From: Bdellovibrio bacteriovorus HD100
Lineage (GTDB): Bacteria; Bdellovibrionota; Bdellovibrionia; Bdellovibrionales; Bdellovibrionaceae
Reading direction: 5' to 3'
Assembly: GCF_000196175.1 (NCBI RefSeq)
Contig: NC_005363.1
Location: 2,418,001 to 2,482,000 of the forward strand
Length of the DNA stretch: 64,000 nt
Shown piece by piece: positions 4,288 through 22,693 of this stretch. How positions within the stretch are numbered: position 1 is the first letter of the stretch; the number at the start of each line of letters is the position of its first letter. The translations under genes and the position numbers were made by a program. The notes beneath the pieces were generated by a model. That model saw only the letters and a program-made list of their open reading frames with translations. It did not search any database and had not been told where the DNA came from.

Positions 4288-4854
4288 ATGCAAACTATCA
4301 TCAACACGAAAGTGCCAGATTTCAAAGTTCAAGCTTTCCATCACGGTGATTTCAAAACTGTGACTCAGAACGACCTGAAAGGTAAATGGTCCATCTTCTT
4401 CTTCTACCCTGCGGATTTCACATTCGTATGCCCTACTGAATTGGGTGACATGGCTGACAAATACGCTGAGTTCCAAAAAATCGGCGTGGAAGTTTACGGT
4501 GTTTCCACTGACACTCACTTCACTCACAAAGCATGGCATGATGCTTCTGAGACGATCAAAAAGATCAAATACCCAATGTTGGCAGACCCTACCTTCCAAT
4601 TGACTCGCGCATTCGGCGTGCACATTGAAGAAGAAGGTTTGGCTTACCGTGGTACTTTCCTGGTGAACCCAGAAGGTAAAATCGTTTTGGCTGAAGTTCA
4701 GGACAACGGTATCGGCCGTAACGCTGATGAATTGTTCCGTAAAACTCAGGCAGCTCAATACATCGCTGCAAACCCAGGCGAAGTTTGCCCTGCGAAATGG
4801 ACTCCAGGCAAATCCACTCTGAAACCAGGTCTTGATCTGGTTGGTAAAATCTAA
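4288..4854 (+). CDS. ahpC: Alkyl hydroperoxide reductase subunit C (2-Cys peroxiredoxin)
   Basis: 188 residues, close in length to E. coli AhpC. The peroxidatic cysteine is in FTFVCPTEL (about residue 47) and the resolving cysteine in GEVCPAKW near the C-terminus. It reduces H2O2, organic hydroperoxides and peroxynitrite in the cytoplasm and is recycled by AhpF, encoded downstream. A strong SD (GAAGGAGAATAA) precedes the ATG. The codon choice is more biased than in neighbouring genes, which fits high expression. It is likely activated by the divergent OxyR. Confidence 0.96.
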   Translation: MQTIINTKVPDFKVQAFHHGDFKTVTQNDLKGKWSIFFFYPADFTFVCPTELGDMADKYAEFQKIGVEVYGVSTDTHFTHKAWHDASETIKKIKYPMLADPTFQLTRAFGVHIEEEGLAYRGTFLVNPEGKIVLAEVQDNGIGRNADELFRKTQAAQYIAANPGEVCPAKWTPGKSTLKPGLDLVGKI

Positions 4855-15964: not shown

Positions 15965-16978
15965 TTATTCAATGCTGTCGATCCAGTCAGCCACGGCCTG
16001 CGCCTCTGCTGAAGACATAGAGCCGGACGTCGGCATATTGCGCGGCCCCGGACCCACCGTCGCACCCGTCAGACGGTAGTAAAGTTTTGATCCCGCAAGA
16101 TCCTTGGCCTTTACAAGACCACGGGAAAGCGCTTTGGTCTCTGTCAAGTTGCGGAAGTCCCCGTATGACGAGCTGTTATGGCAGCTCAGGCACTTCGCAT
16201 CGATGACGGCTTTGGCCGCCAGGAATTTTGGATTCTCTTCCACGACTTCCTTGCCTTCGTTGATCAACGCCGGATCAAAGATCACGTTTTCAATCAGATT
16301 GTTGGTGGCCACATAGCGGGACATCACATTCAGTTCGCCTTTGGTCAGCGCCAGACCGTCCGTGGCAGAGCCGCCATAGACGACATACTCATAGATCTGA
16401 CCGCCGGTTCCACCCGTCGCCACACTTTTCACGGTGAAAGCAAAATCTCCGGGAGTTCCGGTCTTTTGAATTTCAGCTGTCTGAACAACCCCATTCACCT
16501 GCAGGCTCATCTCGGTGGGTTTCACACCAAAGCCTGCCGCAATCACCATCTTACTGCCTGTGGATGGCAGATTCACTTCCATAAAAGAGATGTTGCTTGC
16601 ATCCGGTGCTGCGCGCACCACGCGGATCTTACCCGCAGCGATATTGATGTAAGCATCCTCTTGATTGGCCCCCGCAGACACTGAAAAAACTTTCCCCGTC
16701 ATGCTGGTATCCAGCGCCACCACAAACGACAGTTGATCCGCCATGAAAAGGGCTTTGTTGACATAGGAAGGATTGCCGGGTTTGGACCAGAAAGAAAGTT
16801 CGCTGGAGGACAAAAGTTTTGGCAGGGACTTCTGATCAAGTGCCTCGCGGGAATCAAAGATCCCCTGTTCGTAAAGAACCTGATCCTGCAAAGCAAAGTC
16901 GCTGCAGTTCTGGAACCCCAGAATCATCGCCAACCCCGCACTGCCGACCGCAACGGTCTTTAAAACCCCTAACTTCAT
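15965..16978 (-). CDS. Lipoprotein with a lectin-like middle domain and a cytochrome c-like C-terminus
   Basis: 337 residues from the ATG at 16978 (MKLGVLK); the open frame extends 19 codons further without a better start. The signal ends LAMILGFQNCSD, where Cys follows Phe-Gln-Asn, an unusual lipobox. Residues about 65-210 look like a LamG/concanavalin-type beta-sandwich (FVVALDTS, YINIAAGKIRVV, SLQVNGV). The C-terminal 90 residues hold CLSCHNSS and a distal Met-containing MPTSGSMSS, as in a small cytochrome c. It is the last gene of a five-gene minus-strand cluster. A perfect GTCTCA dyad lies 79 bp upstream. Confidence 0.7.
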   Translation of the reverse strand: MKLGVLKTVAVGSAGLAMILGFQNCSDFALQDQVLYEQGIFDSREALDQKSLPKLLSSSELSFWSKPGNPSYVNKALFMADQLSFVVALDTSMTGKVFSVSAGANQEDAYINIAAGKIRVVRAAPDASNISFMEVNLPSTGSKMVIAAGFGVKPTEMSLQVNGVVQTAEIQKTGTPGDFAFTVKSVATGGTGGQIYEYVVYGGSATDGLALTKGELNVMSRYVATNNLIENVIFDPALINEGKEVVEENPKFLAAKAVIDAKCLSCHNSSSYGDFRNLTETKALSRGLVKAKDLAGSKLYYRLTGATVGPGPRNMPTSGSMSSAEAQAVADWIDSIE

Positions 16979-17056
16979 TCGAACTCCCCCAAAAACATAC
17001 AGAACTCTTATCGGCACCAAACACGCAGAACCCAAGCCTTCCGTGTTTGGTTCCCT

Positions 17057-17071
17057 GTCTCAATCTGAGAC
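17057..17071. promoter_or_regulatory. Dyad GTCTCA-ATC-TGAGAC
   Basis: Perfect member of the dyad family. It lies in the gap upstream of the gene starting at 16978 and touches the stop codon of the gene ending at 17071. It may regulate the last gene of the cluster separately. Confidence 0.55.
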
Positions 17072-18330
17072 TATTGTGGCATTTGCAGATCCACCCATTT
17101 CTGCACGATGGCTTTCATGGAGGACGACATCAGACCACTGCGCGGCATCGGAGCATTCGCATCGTTGATACGACGAATGATTGCCGCTGACTTGGCCTTG
17201 GAAGCTGCATAATTGCTTAGGTCCAGGCCCCCGTCAGCCCCTGCACCTGAGTGACAGCTCAAACACTGAGTTTTGAACACATTCACTTTGGAATCATTTC
17301 CCACCAGCATCGCGTAAGTCACGTTTGCCGGAGCCTCATCCACCGGCACCACCACGTTCGTGCCCGTACCACAAGTCGCCGTTGACTCGGCTTTTTCTAT
17401 GGATGTGAACTGCAATGCAAACTTGTCTGTTGTTTTGGTTGTGTTCATCACCAGAAGCTGGGCATTCCCCACTGGCGCCAAGGCCAGCGGCGTCCCTGGG
17501 CACACCACTGCATTGATATTGCGGTAAACAGTGGCCGAATCCAGCATCTTGTCATTCACATAGAAGAACAGACCTTTCACCCGGTACTTGGCCGTGCCGG
17601 AAGTGATAGAAATTGTCGGGCTGCGGGCCGCATAGCCCACTTCACTGCCGCTGACTTTCGCGACCTGGAATTCCACGGACATTTTCAAAGGGAAGGTCGC
17701 AGCTTTGGCTGGCATGTCCGCCGCCGTGCTGTAGTTCCATTCGATCTTGGTCCATGTTGCCGGGTTGGCTTTGCTGTTCACAATCGTCGCGTTCGTTTTG
17801 TTGGCGGTCACAACGGATTTATCCACACCATCATCACCTTTGCAGGAAAGGAAGGCGGACTGAGCCGCGGCCCATTCCTGTTTCAGACTGGCGATCGCCC
17901 CATTGTGATGAGTGCCTGTGTAGGGCGGATTGTGCGCCGGATTCACAGCATTATCAGAAATCGAAGTGTAACCCTTGTCTTTGAAGACCTGATAGGACAT
18001 CAGCGAGTTCTTCGAAGCAAAGGCCGGCGCTTCGTGTTCACCGTTATGGCAGCCTGCGCAGTTGTTTTTCAGGAAGACGTAATAGCCGGAGCCGAACTTG
18101 GCATAGAGCTGATCTTCACACAGGTCCCCTGTGCTCTGCTCACCCTCTTCGGTCTCGCCCTCATCGGATCCACCCACCAAATCGGAGCTGCCCTGGTTGA
18201 CCAGCTTCACCGTTTGTGTGTCGATCTGAAAACCCTCGCCCAGACTCTGAGCGCAGTTTTGGAATGCCAAGACCAGGATCAGTCCCCCGGACACAGCCCC
18301 CAGAACCTTCAAAGATTGAAGTTTCTTCAT
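17071..18330 (-). CDS. Di-haem cytochrome c-like lipoprotein
   Basis: 419 residues. The signal peptide ends LVLAFQNCAQ, the second example of the FQNC lipobox. Two CxxCH motifs flank a beta-rich middle region: NNCAGCHNGEHEAP near residue 95 and TQCLSCHSGAGADGG near residue 370, the latter followed by a Met-bearing MPRSGLMSS. It is predicted to be a periplasm-facing or surface electron carrier. It lies 10 bp downstream of the DUF1501-like gene. The arrangement of haem domain plus C-terminal mini-cytochrome is shared with the 15965 gene. Confidence 0.72.
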   Translation of the reverse strand: MKKLQSLKVLGAVSGGLILVLAFQNCAQSLGEGFQIDTQTVKLVNQGSSDLVGGSDEGETEEGEQSTGDLCEDQLYAKFGSGYYVFLKNNCAGCHNGEHEAPAFASKNSLMSYQVFKDKGYTSISDNAVNPAHNPPYTGTHHNGAIASLKQEWAAAQSAFLSCKGDDGVDKSVVTANKTNATIVNSKANPATWTKIEWNYSTAADMPAKAATFPLKMSVEFQVAKVSGSEVGYAARSPTISITSGTAKYRVKGLFFYVNDKMLDSATVYRNINAVVCPGTPLALAPVGNAQLLVMNTTKTTDKFALQFTSIEKAESTATCGTGTNVVVPVDEAPANVTYAMLVGNDSKVNVFKTQCLSCHSGAGADGGLDLSNYAASKAKSAAIIRRINDANAPMPRSGLMSSSMKAIVQKWVDLQMPQ

Positions 18331-18340
18331 TCGCTTCCCC

Positions 18341-19753
18341 TTAAGCTACGTGAAGTTTAACAACTTTTTCAACATCGTCCGCCTGCAAGGTGGCCGGTGC
18401 CAGTTGTTTGAACATCCCCATCTTGTAATTCAAATTCAGATAGTTCGCCAGAATTGCCGCCGCCACATAGTCCGGACGGGAACCCACCAGCGTGGAAGTA
18501 TCCACACTCTGATCCGTCAGATAGTGACCGATTTGAGTCCCGCTGGAAGTCACTTTGCCTCTTGGATCAAAGGCAATGATGAATTGCAGTGATGACGAAT
18601 AGTCACTGGACCAGATACTGGATGAAGTGTCAGACACTTCGGAAGAACAGGCGCCGTCAGTGGTAACCATAATGAACAATTGCTTGTTCATCTGGCTGGC
18701 AAGCTCCAGCATGTTGCCGATCTGAACTCCCGCCGCGAAGTCTTTGGCATCCGCCGCAGTTCGCACACCCGGCGAGTGATAATCATAACCACCCAGAGTA
18801 ATACGGCCATGAGCGATATTGCCGTTCAATGCATTATAAACCACGCCCGCCGTCACCGCCGTGGCGTTGTTGGCAGCCGTCGCTGTATTGATTTTGTAAA
18901 CATTCTGCACGATGGTGTCTTTGCGAGGATCCACCCCCGTAGCGCCACCTGCCGCAATAATATCCCCGGACTTCACACCGGCCTCTTGCAAAGCCAGTTT
19001 CAATCCGTCATTTTTTGAGTTCAGTTTGGCCACCTGGGATTTCGTCATCTTGGAAACAAACGACGCCAGGGTTCTTTTTTGTTTGGCATTCAAAATGCCA
19101 TTGTCAGCCAAAACACTGGAATAGTTCAAAGCACCGAACATGTTATCCAGGCTCGCCAGCTCCAGAGAGGAGTTTGGCGAAGAAAACACGGGACGGATAT
19201 TTTCAGCCCCTGCGCCCTGATGCACACCCGGCAAAACTTTGCCGACAAGGCCTGCTCTTTCCAGCGGACCGGAAAGATCATAGAACGGGCGAAGAGCCGC
19301 CTGACCGTTGGTGTCGTTGGCAGTGTCTGTGCAAAGAGCCACAAGACGTGCTTTACCCAGAGTCGCAGTGCTGGCAACGGATTTAATGCCTTTGTGCAGT
19401 TGGGAACTGGAAGCAAAGTCCGCCCCCATCACTTTCTCTGTGGCAAAGCCGGCTTTGCCCAGGCCCAGTTTGGTGTAAGCTCCCAAAAGACTGCCGCCCT
19501 TGTCTTTTACGACAAAGTTCCCGTGCAGGGCCGCCCCGCCACTCAGGCTTAAAGTCACAAATGGGATCATCGGGTCGCCTTCGGCCGCCACGGCTTTGCT
19601 TCCCATGGTCAAAATAGAAGTCACCGCCCCTGGCACCGCGACACGGGCTGCGAAGGACAAAACTCCGGTTTCAAGCAATTCCCGTCGTGAAAGCTTCAGG
19701 CTGGACAGGTCGGTTTTTTCATCCAGGACTTTTTGCAGTTTATCGTTTTTCAT
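18341..19753 (-). CDS. Tat-exported DUF1501-like protein
   Basis: 470 residues from the ATG at 19753, chosen because GGGGGGAAT precedes it and a twin-arginine signal follows (LKLSRRELLETGVLSFAARVAV). The mature part begins DPMIPFVTLSLSGGAALHGNF and contains LGGYDYHSPG and VTTDGACSSEV. This resembles DUF1501 proteins (distant alkaline-phosphatase/sulfatase-like fold). In other bacteria such proteins are encoded beside DUF1592/DUF1588 or DUF1800 partners, as seems the case here with the 20460 gene. Tat export suggests a folded or cofactor-containing periplasmic protein. The biochemical activity is unknown. Confidence 0.68.
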   Translation of the reverse strand: MKNDKLQKVLDEKTDLSSLKLSRRELLETGVLSFAARVAVPGAVTSILTMGSKAVAAEGDPMIPFVTLSLSGGAALHGNFVVKDKGGSLLGAYTKLGLGKAGFATEKVMGADFASSSQLHKGIKSVASTATLGKARLVALCTDTANDTNGQAALRPFYDLSGPLERAGLVGKVLPGVHQGAGAENIRPVFSSPNSSLELASLDNMFGALNYSSVLADNGILNAKQKRTLASFVSKMTKSQVAKLNSKNDGLKLALQEAGVKSGDIIAAGGATGVDPRKDTIVQNVYKINTATAANNATAVTAGVVYNALNGNIAHGRITLGGYDYHSPGVRTAADAKDFAAGVQIGNMLELASQMNKQLFIMVTTDGACSSEVSDTSSSIWSSDYSSSLQFIIAFDPRGKVTSSGTQIGHYLTDQSVDTSTLVGSRPDYVAAAILANYLNLNYKMGMFKQLAPATLQADDVEKVVKLHVA

Positions 19754-19778
19754 ATTCCCCCCAAATCCCCGTTGTCCG

Positions 19779-20456
19779 TTACAGAAGGTAAGATTCCGGC
19801 ACGGACAACATGCCTGAACAGATAAAGACGGCCAGTTTGTCAGACTCTGTCGCTTTCCCCAAAGCGGCTGAATCCAAAGTGCTGTAGTACTCATCCACAG
19901 CTTGTGTGATGAAGGCTAGCTCTTCACTGGATGGCTTGCGCATCCAAAAGCGGTCGATCATCAGAATGTACGTGTTGATAGCGCCCATTTTTCCATAAGT
20001 GCCGGGACCTTTCGCAAAATCCAGATACTTAAAGATGTCACGAGGGCCCTTTTTTTCTTTATTCACGGCCTGCTGACAAACCACGCCCGCCAGCGAAGTC
20101 GTGGCGATAATACTTGGTGAATTCACCAGAGTCAGATCATTCTGAGGAACCAGCAGATTGCGGCGATAATTGATCTCGGCATTCACAGTTCCCATATTGA
20201 TGTCGGTGCTTTTCAGATTCAACAGCGACATCATGGACTCCAGCGTTTGTTTCGCATCCACCGGCGCCCCATCTATATCCGACTGGGTTTTGTTGCTCAC
20301 ACTGCTGTTGCTGCCATCGACGCTGCCCCCGTTTAAGGTGACCTCTTCAAGGCTGGCAAAGTCAGTCTGCTGAGCACAGTTCTGAAAGGACATTGTCACA
20401 AACAGGAAAGAGAAGCTCACGCCAATCACTGCGCCAATTTTTTTCTTAGCATTCAT
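19779..20456 (-). CDS. FQNC-type lipoprotein of unknown function
   Basis: 225 residues. The signal ends FVTMSFQNCAQ, the third FQNC lipobox in this cluster. A Ser/Asn-rich linker follows, then a mostly helical domain without CxxCH. It sits between the haem protein (stop at 20460, 3 bp away) and the DUF1501-like gene (25-bp gap), so all three are likely one transcript. The closing segment, with SEELAFITQAVDEYYSTLD and VFICSGMLSVPESYLL, resembles the helical tails found in DUF1592/DUF1595-type partners. That similarity is weak. Confidence 0.62.
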   Translation of the reverse strand: MNAKKKIGAVIGVSFSFLFVTMSFQNCAQQTDFASLEEVTLNGGSVDGSNSSVSNKTQSDIDGAPVDAKQTLESMMSLLNLKSTDINMGTVNAEINYRRNLLVPQNDLTLVNSPSIIATTSLAGVVCQQAVNKEKKGPRDIFKYLDFAKGPGTYGKMGAINTYILMIDRFWMRKPSSEELAFITQAVDEYYSTLDSAALGKATESDKLAVFICSGMLSVPESYLL

Positions 20457-20459
20457 GGT

Positions 20460-22304
20460 CTACTCCTCTTTCACCACGCCACAGACCGGGTCCAGGGCGA
20501 CTTCAGTATAAAGACTTTTCAAATTATAATTCACGGCTTCAAAGCGGTCGCCCAGACGAACCAGCGTCGAGTACTGCGTGGACTCCAGCTTTTTCAGGCA
20601 CACACTTTCATAAACGCGTTTGGCCATACACTGGGAAAAACGACGGCTCTGTGAAAGCATTTTACCAAAATCCTTCACGCCCTGACCGCCACCGGCATTG
20701 CCACCTCTCCAGCCGAAGAAAGTGGACTTACTGCCCAATACCGCGTTGTTGACGAAGTTATCGCTGTTCACCACGAAACCATACGGGTAACTGCCCTTGT
20801 TCATTTTTGCCGCCACCCCGGTGCTTGAATCAAACACATTGCGTGGGAACAGGCGAAGCTCTTCCCGGGCTTCCAGATAAGGAGTCACCAGATTGATATT
20901 GGCCGGACGACCTTTGTTGATCAGCTTGCCCAACAAGCGGGTTCTTTCAGCCTCGGAGGCTCCCGAAAGGCTGGACTCATAGTGAATATACATCAAAGAC
21001 ATTTCTCTTTTATTGTCCAGGTTGCAGATCAGGAAACGTCTTTCACGCTCCTGGTCAGTGATATTGGCGGTGCCGAAATGATTCACACACGTTGTCGTGT
21101 ACATGTTCTTGTATTCATCAGTGGTGCGCTTCGCCTTGATGTCAGCCAGAACGCTGGCTTTTTTTGCACTGAAGTCCGCGGCAATTGCATTGGCAACCGC
21201 CGGATCACGAATCGTGTCCAATGTGCCCATCAATGTACCGCGGGCCGTGGCCTCTGCGGTCCCGCGTTTGATCAAATACGCCAGACGGGTCGTAAACCAG
21301 GTGGAATTTTCCTGTCTGTTCACCAGATCCGGAAGAATGTCTGCCGTTACTTTGGCAATATAGTTGGTATTATAGGTGTTGTAGTCAGCCTGAATGCCAT
21401 GCTGATTGAAGAAGTCCCCGTTCATCTGGGAATATGTGCCGGTCGCGCCACCCGTGGTGAAGTTAGTGTAGTCCATCTTCGCAAAGGCACCACGCATACC
21501 ATCCATCACGGAATGGCAGCTCTTACAGCTGGTCAGATATTTGTTGTGATCCCCCGCCGGGAAACGTTCCACGTCACGGCCCACGTATTGGTCAGAAGCA
21601 GATGAATCTGCCGCTTCCGCCATGGACACACACAGGAACTGTTTCAAAGAAAACTCAACGGCACGACGGTTGGTACCACCGCTCAGGTTTCTTTCTGCAA
21701 AGGTGCGGGTCGTAAACACACCGGCTGGTTCAGGATTGTTGTCCAGGCTGACCATCTCATAGCTCTTCTCTGACTGCAGATACGGCGTGCTCCACGCAGA
21801 CTTCACCATCTTTTGGCGCGGCTGCTGAACCAAGGCTGTCTGCAGGTTCATATAAGAAGTTTCAACAGGCGTGTAATTGGCCTGATTGAACATACGGGTT
21901 CTTTGATCAGTCTCGTTGGGAACACCTTTAACATCATAAAAATAATCGGCCGTCAGAATGTCCCGGAAATCCTTGCCATCACGAACCACACCGACGATCA
22001 ACGCCGAGAAATCGTTGAAGGGAACTTTCACGGATTCATCTTTATTTGAAAGCTTCAGGGACAGATTTTTGATCTGCACATTCAAAAAGTCTGAAGTGCC
22101 GGTAATATAGTTCGCAGCACCGCGGGTGTCCCCTTTTGCAATCAGCTCCGCCACTTGCTTAAGCTCGGGCTTGGTGGACGACACCTTAACGCCGGTCATT
22201 CTCTCATAGAGTTTCTTGGCCTTGAGCATGTCTGACTCTGCCGCATGAGCGTTTACAATAGAAAACGCTGACGCCACGACAACAAGATATTTGTAGCCCC
22301 TCAT
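20460..22304 (-). CDS. Exported haem protein, DUF1588/DUF1592-like
   Basis: 614 residues from the ATG at 22304, with AAGGGGGAA upstream; a TTG two codons earlier is less likely. There is a signal peptide (VVVASAFSIVNAHA). One haem motif occurs in YLTSCKSCHSVMDGMRGAFAKMDY. This matches the CxxCHxxMDxxxxAxxxxD pattern of planctomycete-type DUF1588 proteins. The flanking regions (GTNRRAVEFSLKQFLCVSM) also fit that family. It is the first gene of the cluster, so the promoter probably lies in the 389-bp gap upstream. Confidence 0.7.
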   Translation of the reverse strand: MRGYKYLVVVASAFSIVNAHAAESDMLKAKKLYERMTGVKVSSTKPELKQVAELIAKGDTRGAANYITGTSDFLNVQIKNLSLKLSNKDESVKVPFNDFSALIVGVVRDGKDFRDILTADYFYDVKGVPNETDQRTRMFNQANYTPVETSYMNLQTALVQQPRQKMVKSAWSTPYLQSEKSYEMVSLDNNPEPAGVFTTRTFAERNLSGGTNRRAVEFSLKQFLCVSMAEAADSSASDQYVGRDVERFPAGDHNKYLTSCKSCHSVMDGMRGAFAKMDYTNFTTGGATGTYSQMNGDFFNQHGIQADYNTYNTNYIAKVTADILPDLVNRQENSTWFTTRLAYLIKRGTAEATARGTLMGTLDTIRDPAVANAIAADFSAKKASVLADIKAKRTTDEYKNMYTTTCVNHFGTANITDQERERRFLICNLDNKREMSLMYIHYESSLSGASEAERTRLLGKLINKGRPANINLVTPYLEAREELRLFPRNVFDSSTGVAAKMNKGSYPYGFVVNSDNFVNNAVLGSKSTFFGWRGGNAGGGQGVKDFGKMLSQSRRFSQCMAKRVYESVCLKKLESTQYSTLVRLGDRFEAVNYNLKSLYTEVALDPVCGVVKEE

Positions 22305-22693
22305 ACTCAATTCCCCCTTGAGTGATTACATTATCGTCTAATTTGGGAAAAATTGTGATGCTCCGGCAGAAAATAATCGTTCGACAATCCCTGTAGAAGA
22401 CATTGACGACGAATCAGAGAGAGACACTTTTACCGTCTGTCCACATGTAAGTACCTGACAACAGGAATTCAGAATCCCCGGTTGAGACATTTTCCTGCCC
22501 CGGGAATGTGAAAACTAACTGTTCCCCACGGGAAAAAAAACTGCTTCCTGGTTCCGCGAGTGCTTCAAGCCGAGACACAGACGCTGTGAACCCGCGTTTT
22601 TCAGAGATTTATTCCGCATTTAGCCCCCCGTCCCTGCCGACTTGGGGAACATCTTTTCCTTTAGTTCCGTTTCAAATTGTCGATAAAGTCATT
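22305..22693. other. 389-bp divergent intergenic region
   Basis: It separates the haem/DUF1501 cluster from the barrel gene at 22694. A weak TTGACG at 22404 and a lone TGAGAC half-site near 22482 are visible. An open frame from a GTG at 22508 runs into the barrel gene but has no SD or signal-like sequence. I see no RNA gene or riboswitch that I can name. Confidence 0.4.

Follow-up and report, generated by a model that had tools for sequence, protein, structure and literature searches.

Leaders that end in Phe-Gln-Asn before a predicted lipidated cysteine (FQNC) probably form a distinct class of type II signal peptides, which arose in Bdellovibrio's class and expanded in its order. They were encountered in a 64,000-nt stretch of the Bdellovibrio bacteriovorus HD100 genome (NC_005363.1, positions 2,418,001 to 2,482,000 of the forward strand; hereafter, the window), for which an earlier note had described three lipoproteins with FQN in front of the cysteine. 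All three motifs were found as described (GFQNCSD, AFQNCAQ, and SFQNCAQ), each on the minus strand. Judged by sequence, FQNC is an order-wide, selected, and bipartite class of lipoprotein signals, as indicated by the class itself, how far it extends across the phylum, the conservation of F-Q-N as a unit, and a further half of the motif on the mature protein. The recognition element would span the lipidated cysteine (+1), with F-Q-N before it and, after it, Ser, Gly, or Ala at +2, a paucity of basic residues, and in many cases Phe at +4 to +8. We infer lipidation, the cleavage site, an outer-membrane or surface fate, and the choice of LspA for FQNC proteins along the following route: the precursor would be exported by Sec, Lgt would add lipid to the cysteine, a type II signal peptidase (one of the two LspA proteins discussed below) would cut between Asn and Cys, and the resulting lipoproteins (Ig-like, VWA/MIDAS, cytochrome c, and glycosidase proteins among them) would travel to the outer membrane, where many would probably face outward.

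FQNC leaders of B. bacteriovorus

Lipoprotein A (window positions 15965..16978, minus strand, 337 aa) begins with the leader MKLGVLKTVAVGSAGLAMILGFQN followed by CSDFALQD, with Phe at +4; its FQNC codons lie at 16904-16915, and the ATG at 16978 was preferred as start over a TTG at 17035. Lipoprotein B (17071..18330, minus strand, 419 aa; FQNC codons 18253-18264) carries MKKLQSLKVLGAVSGGLILVLAFQN followed by CAQSLGEGF, with Phe at +9, just beyond the +4 to +8 range, and lipoprotein C (19779..20456, minus strand, 225 aa; FQNC codons 20376-20387) carries MNAKKKIGAVIGVSFSFLFVTMSFQN followed by CAQQTDFA, with Phe at +7. Lipoproteins A and B have C-terminal cytochrome c domains, seen in A as a Pfam match to Cytochrom_C just above the cut-off, with Cytochrome_CBB3 below it, and in B as a match to Cytochrome_CBB3 (33.1 bits vs. 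a cut-off of 27). Lipoprotein C belongs to no family.

The genome-wide list of hydrophobic-leader FQNC proteins that the note had proposed yielded 11 members. The FQNC codon pattern occurred at 36 places in the 3,782,950-base genome, compared with seven for a reversed control, and all 36 were read in frame. Eleven, picked by their hydrophobic N-terminal stretch, are leader ends; the remaining 25, including window positions 4350-4361, are not. The eight leaders outside the window lie at approximately 450.6, 467.9, 621.1, 2384.9, 3037.5, 3177.6, 3491.4, and 3647.0 kb of the genome, and the 11 proteins span 195 to 655 aa. A canonical lipobox has Gly, Ala, or Ser at -1 before the cysteine, in the manner of PROSITE. 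All 11 leaders possess an n-region, a hydrophobic stretch, and a cysteine at the leader end; the residue at -1 is by definition Asn, outside the canonical set. The residue at -5 is hydrophobic in all 11, that at -4 is Ala, Gly, or Ser in 10, and that at +2 is Ala, Ser, or Gly in all 11, compared with 20 of 43 canonical leaders of the same genome; these three positions were judged solely on the 11 leaders found with the 12-base pattern, and the extended pattern used below itself fixes their residue class. The YQNC leader of an 82-aa frame (L317; genome positions 3416701-3416719) may add a twelfth protein to the class. YHNC and FNNC variants were also present in this genome, but were not leaders.

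The note had reckoned with a motif confined to paralogues by descent, which would here mean gene duplication or a shuffled leader spread by copying inside the genome. Lipoproteins A and B do share their cytochrome c domain (E 2e-4), and at the DNA level the 11 leaders resemble one another slightly more than canonical leaders do (mean identity 0.36 vs. 0.30); against this, no other pair among the 11 mature parts was similar at E 0.01, the FQNC codons are spelled in six ways, and the 73 distinct FQNC leaders collected fall into 50 separate homology groups. Because the mature parts are mostly unrelated and the codons differ, common descent does not explain the motif. This explanation is largely refuted and can hardly be credited any longer.

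Distribution within the phylum

Matches to the extended pattern TNNSNTTYCARAAYTGYDS (hydrophobic-small-FQNC-small) were counted across 368 genomes from the Bdellovibrionota, the phylum to which all statements on the absence of FQNC elsewhere are confined. The 140 genomes of the order contained 857 matches (mean, 6.1; maximum, 27, in G181), and 12 of them had none. Each of the 225 genomes outside the class had 0-3 matches, and the reversed control likewise gave 0-3 per genome. The class has a sister order (three genomes, four matches), which yielded one clear leader (L155), one borderline case (L163), and two non-leaders. When the first matches from eight genomes of five families were read, 27 of 30 proved to be leader ends, as did 39 of 40 further matches from four of those genomes. 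Together with the unrelated mature parts, this order-wide occurrence bears out the suggestion that FQNC is a recurring class rather than a set of paralogues.

F-Q-N as a unit

Residues at -1 and -2 were compared in samples comprising 800 kb of the HD100 genome, 400 kb from 20 other genomes, and 65 named loci (883 kb), with the window excluded, having been chosen for FQNC. A custom detector returned 138 distinct leader-like rows, of which 97 had Gly, Ala, or Ser at -1, 12 had Asn (seven as FQN), and 29 had another residue; these last could reflect a broad, leptospiral-type relaxed lipobox, though many are probably false calls of the detector. Gln(-2) was present in seven of the 12 Asn(-1) leaders and in none of the 126 others (p=5e-9). 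A stricter statement, that Asn(-1) occurs only as FQN, held in the first two samples save for one probably false IRN; it was abandoned upon analysis of the third, which contained LFN, SAN, SFN, and LAN, and an LVN leader occurs in HD100 outside the samples. The statement retained is that Gln(-2) was found solely alongside Asn(-1) in the samples. Because Asn(-1) without FQ occurs (LAN, LFN, LVN), the signal peptidase II of the order is probably tolerant of Asn(-1) in general. The need of canonical lipoboxes for Gly, Ala, or Ser at -1, as given in the note, is not absolute, in view of these leaders and of verified spirochaete lipoproteins in which Asn(-1) is reported as accepted, with altered Lgt and Lsp proposed to match (PMC4758666).

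Conservation of the unit was also apparent in a family of VWA proteins whose members, matching at 28-75% identity, were found in 17 of the order's 140 genomes. Among 13 aligned leaders, Asn(-1) occurred in 12, Gln(-2) in 10 (the others having His, Asn, or Ala), and Phe or Tyr(-3) in 12; the homologues retain [FY]-[QNH]-N and the hydrophobic stretch drifts. L179 and L180, which nearly duplicate L178, were excluded from the alignment, as were any second locus of a gene already included and the distant L202 (28% identity, FTA-Cys); the script called no leader for L175, L177, L182, L183, L184, L185, L191, and L196. In one member, L186 of genome G223, the equivalent cysteine is preceded by LAA, and this canonical lipobox at the shared position argues for a lipoprotein reading of FQNC.

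The same family bears on the alternative of cleavage by signal peptidase I behind the small residue at -4, in which case FQNC would start a soluble mature protein and its cysteine would be unlipidated. The Ala, Gly, or Ser that precedes FQNC in 10 of the 11 HD100 leaders does resemble an Ala-x-Ala site. The VWA proteins, however, often have Leu, Phe, or Pro at that position and keep the cysteine, a canonical lipobox can replace FQN in front of it, and the small residue at +2 is lipoprotein-like. We consider cleavage by signal peptidase I very unlikely.

Phenylalanine after the cysteine

With one member counted per homology group, Phe was present at +4 to +8 in 27 of the 50 FQNC groups vs. 13 of 97 canonical leaders (p=4e-7, in a post hoc comparison). 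Control ranges showed no difference (5/50 vs. 8/97 at +10 to +14; 4/50 vs. 10/97 at +15 to +19). A fresh test was then fixed in writing before 40 new places were looked at, one of which was not a leader; 17 of the 39 leaders were homologous to the discovery set and were dropped. Phe occurred at +4 to +8 in 10 of the 21 new, unrelated groups vs. the same 13 of 97 canonical leaders (p=0.0011), and the control ranges gave 2/21 vs. 8/97 (+10 to +14) and 2/21 vs. 10/97 (+15 to +19). The difference persisted when the canonical rows were limited to those with Ala, Ser, Gly, or Thr at +2 (nine of 64 with Phe; p=6e-6 for the discovery set and p=0.005 for the fresh set). Basic residues at +3 to +8 were scarcer in the fresh FQNC groups (7/21 vs. 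63/97; p=0.013). In Bacteroidota, an acidic motif after the lipidated cysteine, the lipoprotein export signal (LES), marks a subset of lipoproteins; LES-like acidic residues at +3 to +8 were not enriched in the fresh FQNC groups (15/21 vs. 58/97; p=0.46).

Because it stays on the mature protein, Phe is the likelier of the two halves to hold sorting information. This bears on a rival explanation, by which FQNC is just a habit of the lineage: an ordinary signal peptidase II would tolerate Asn(-1), and FQN would be a well-cut sequence that convergence has spread, devoid of sorting information. The Asn(-1) of verified spirochaete lipoproteins (PMC4758666), the few LVN, LAN, and LFN leaders, the single VWA homologue with LAA, and the overlap of FQNC cargo with that of canonical lipoproteins are consistent with such a habit. 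It does not predict the strict coupling of Gln(-2) to Asn(-1), conservation across the order, or a Phe in the mature part that survives removal of the leader, and we hold it to be possible but doubtful.

A second LspA and a second Lgt

The HD100 genome has two LspA genes, encoding proteins of 169 and 310 aa. The second (L034:1459-2391; genome positions 3161956-3162885; 310 aa) matches PF01252 at 83 bits vs. a cut-off of 25, scores below the NCBIfam lspA equivalog cut-off (44.6 vs. 73.95 bits), and has approximately 150 additional residues that form long helices in an AlphaFold2 model (mean pLDDT, 79). The LspA fold is retained, with residues 6-151 matching 5dir_C (Z 16.5; root-mean-square deviation [rmsd], 2.7; 143 aligned) and 6ryo_A (Z 15.9), and the Asp pair, D108 and D135, is invariant in 24 sequences. 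Unlike in those enzymes, the additional helices run to a sensor-like end that looked HAMP-like by eye; Pfam gave no match to HAMP in the extension, even at E 5. Structural matches to WalK (9a5d_A; Z 7.5; rmsd, 3.7; 142 residues) and a chemoreceptor (8c5v_I; Z 6.4) are in the range usual for long helices, and fold searches with the second LspA returned nothing clear apart from LspA itself. The protein is 95% identical in B. bacteriovorus strain kdesi. Unlike an ordinary LspA, it has near-full-length matches from Bdellovibrionota-type records: among the best 80 of 260 relatives (79 loci), 68, some of them vaguely titled, match over most of its length, and for the last 11 (Clostridium, Ferrimonas, Eubacteriaceae, and one Oligoflexia) the match is confined to the LspA part. 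One of the 68, at 66% identity, comes from a metagenome-assembled genome titled Streptomyces griseus (L236), probably a mislabelled Bdellovibrionota bin.

This LspA paralogue with its sensor-like C-terminal extension is a candidate for a dedicated peptidase that cuts FQNC lipoproteins. With E 1e-60 as the cut, 118 of the order's 140 genomes have the long LspA, and its occurrence was associated with at least two FQNC matches (106 genomes with and 12 without such matches where the enzyme is present, vs. 11 and 11 where it is not; Fisher p=5e-5, not corrected for relatedness). The same held among genomes at least 90% complete (85 and 10 vs. 3 and 5; p=0.0015, likewise uncorrected). Ten small genomes from four genera have no close copy (best E 2.8e-26), and their four extended-pattern matches are all non-leaders. 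These ten losses, however, fall in a single family whose genomes are reduced, and in six of the ten a weaker match (E 1e-14 to 1e-26) may represent a diverged copy. Genomes G190, G210, and G213 (93-99% complete) also have no close long LspA, yet all 15 matches fetched from them, out of 18, are leaders; an assembly gap is possible in these three. Conversely, G173, G189, G027, G264, and the 61%-complete G232 carry the enzyme but have zero FQNC matches, and three Bacteriovorax/Halobacteriovorax-type homologues retain the Asp pair in genomes in which FQNC is at background (zero, one unread, and zero matches). The long LspA tracks FQNC loosely, and a dedicated role for it is rather unlikely.

The second Lgt (L213:1456-2541; genome positions 1040280-1041362; 361 aa) has an insertion inside its PF01790 domain, and the short Lgt (genome positions 3287493-3288194) lies approximately 8 kb from the short LspA. 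In the order, the long Lgt occurs in families f1, f4, f6, and f10, including small genomes without FQNC leaders. A close copy was not found in f9 (G032, in which four of four matches read are leaders), f5, or f8; the last two have 3-6 extended-pattern matches per genome, as pattern counts only. As a partner of FQNC, the second Lgt was ruled out, its distribution not tracking the motif (Fisher p=0.53).

The note had taken the motif to suggest a specialised signal-peptidase or sorting class. Its peptidase half is unproven, given the loose tracking of the second LspA, and its sorting half has gained ground through the Phe of the mature part. Both halves could be joined in a two-step address tag, FQN/C-[SGA]-x(2-6)-F, in which a dedicated, sensor-coupled LspA with its HAMP-like end would read FQN ahead of cleavage and a sorting factor would afterwards read the lipidated cysteine plus Phe, so that a separate set of lipoproteins would reach the outer surface of predatory bacteria; we put this forward as a speculative scheme, with the odds against it.

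Cargo and a possible surface location

The 11 HD100 proteins include three cytochrome c proteins, one of which has PSCyt3 and PSD4 domains, two VWA/MIDAS-like proteins (L022, through weak, below-cut-off matches to VWA_2 and NF052240, and L024, through a DxSxS motif), and one with a weak, below-cut-off Ig-like match; the rest are of no known family. Pfam was also run on 20 of 44 listed FQNC proteins, these 20 being from other genomes, and on 20 of 36 canonical lipoproteins (19 of the 20 from HD100). Ten of the 20 FQNC proteins had a match at E 0.001, to Ig-like domains (three), TSP3, SodC, cytochrome c, glycosidase GH114, a GH5 cellulase, HRM/Sushi repeats, and, below the cut-off, SlpA. Matches among the canonical lipoproteins included lytic transglycosylase (two), trypsin, Met-zincin (two), pullulanase, the endonuclease/phosphatase family, PD40, RCC1, and one Ig-like domain. 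In these non-random picks, FQNC cargo appears to lean toward adhesive and electron-transfer proteins.

A surface role for FQNC lipoproteins is plausible. The adhesin Bd0875 (L220:8906-10060; genome 826.9-828.1 kb) matches NF052240 at 731 bits vs. a cut-off of 700 and has a canonical YVG-Cys, and its mature part starts with CSPVKFSL, with Phe at +6 as in the FQNC class. It was detected at the predator-prey junction, from which a location on the predator surface was inferred; of four MIDAS proteins compared there, Bd0875 and Bd1483 are credited with an identifiable lipobox (PMC11003981). Lipobox proteins of Bdellovibrio that are secreted into prey are treated in PMC10127604. FQNC as a required surface signal was ruled out by the YVG-Cys of Bd0875.

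Several observations weigh against an order-wide, bipartite sorting signal. Two count against the sorting class: FQN is dispensable for the surface in Bd0875, and the LAA swap in the FQNC-rich genome G223 (19 matches) suggests that homologous cargo can be handled by a cell with either signal. Furthermore, approximately half of the FQNC groups have no Phe at +4 to +8, canonical cargo likewise includes an Ig-like protein and exported enzymes, and the leaders were called by a custom script rather than by SignalP or LipoP, and some rows are probably false (e.g., CHVVSRLV in L052).

The three lipoproteins of the window stand in a minus-strand cluster (15965-22310) with two proteins that are not FQNC and are given for context. 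A 517-aa frame between lipoproteins B and C (18341..19894) has a twin-arginine-like SRREL leader, judged by eye, and no Pfam match; directly upstream, a 616-aa protein with a signal-like start (20460..22310) has weak PSD2/DUF1585 similarity (E 0.013, below cut-off). G002 and G023 each likewise have three FQNC matches, as pattern counts, inside 3.5 kb.

Relation to known systems and significance

Like canonical leaders, FQNC leaders have a positive n-region, a hydrophobic stretch, a hydrophobic residue at -3, and an invariant cysteine at the end; they differ in Asn(-1), Gln(-2), the coupling of these positions, and the added downstream Phe. With the LES of Bacteroidota the class has in common a short motif beside the lipidated cysteine on a subset of lipoproteins, but it is not acid-enriched and half of its motif stands before the cysteine. 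The -1 position of leptospiral and spirochaetal lipoboxes is described as flexible (Asn, Ser, Cys, Tyr, Leu, or Phe), and Leptonema has two Lgt (PMC4758666). Asn(-1) and changed or duplicated enzymes (two Lgt and two LspA in HD100) are shared with what that source describes, whereas the constancy of a single FQN tripeptide, alongside leaders that are mostly canonical, is not. Within the open-licence papers searched, no description of an FQNC lipoprotein class was found.

If this reading is correct, some of the lipoproteins in a whole order of predatory bacteria would be marked by a signal that falls outside [GAS]-C rules. Standard lipobox rules may miss FQNC-anchored proteins, and the set of anchored proteins of the order would be under-counted; an example is the MIDAS-like protein at 3037 kb, which has FQN-Cys and is probably Bd3132, given its position and weak MIDAS similarity. 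A motif that flanks the lipidated cysteine on either side would, in addition, offer a rare handle on the sorting of Gram-negative lipoproteins, with a candidate enzyme attached.

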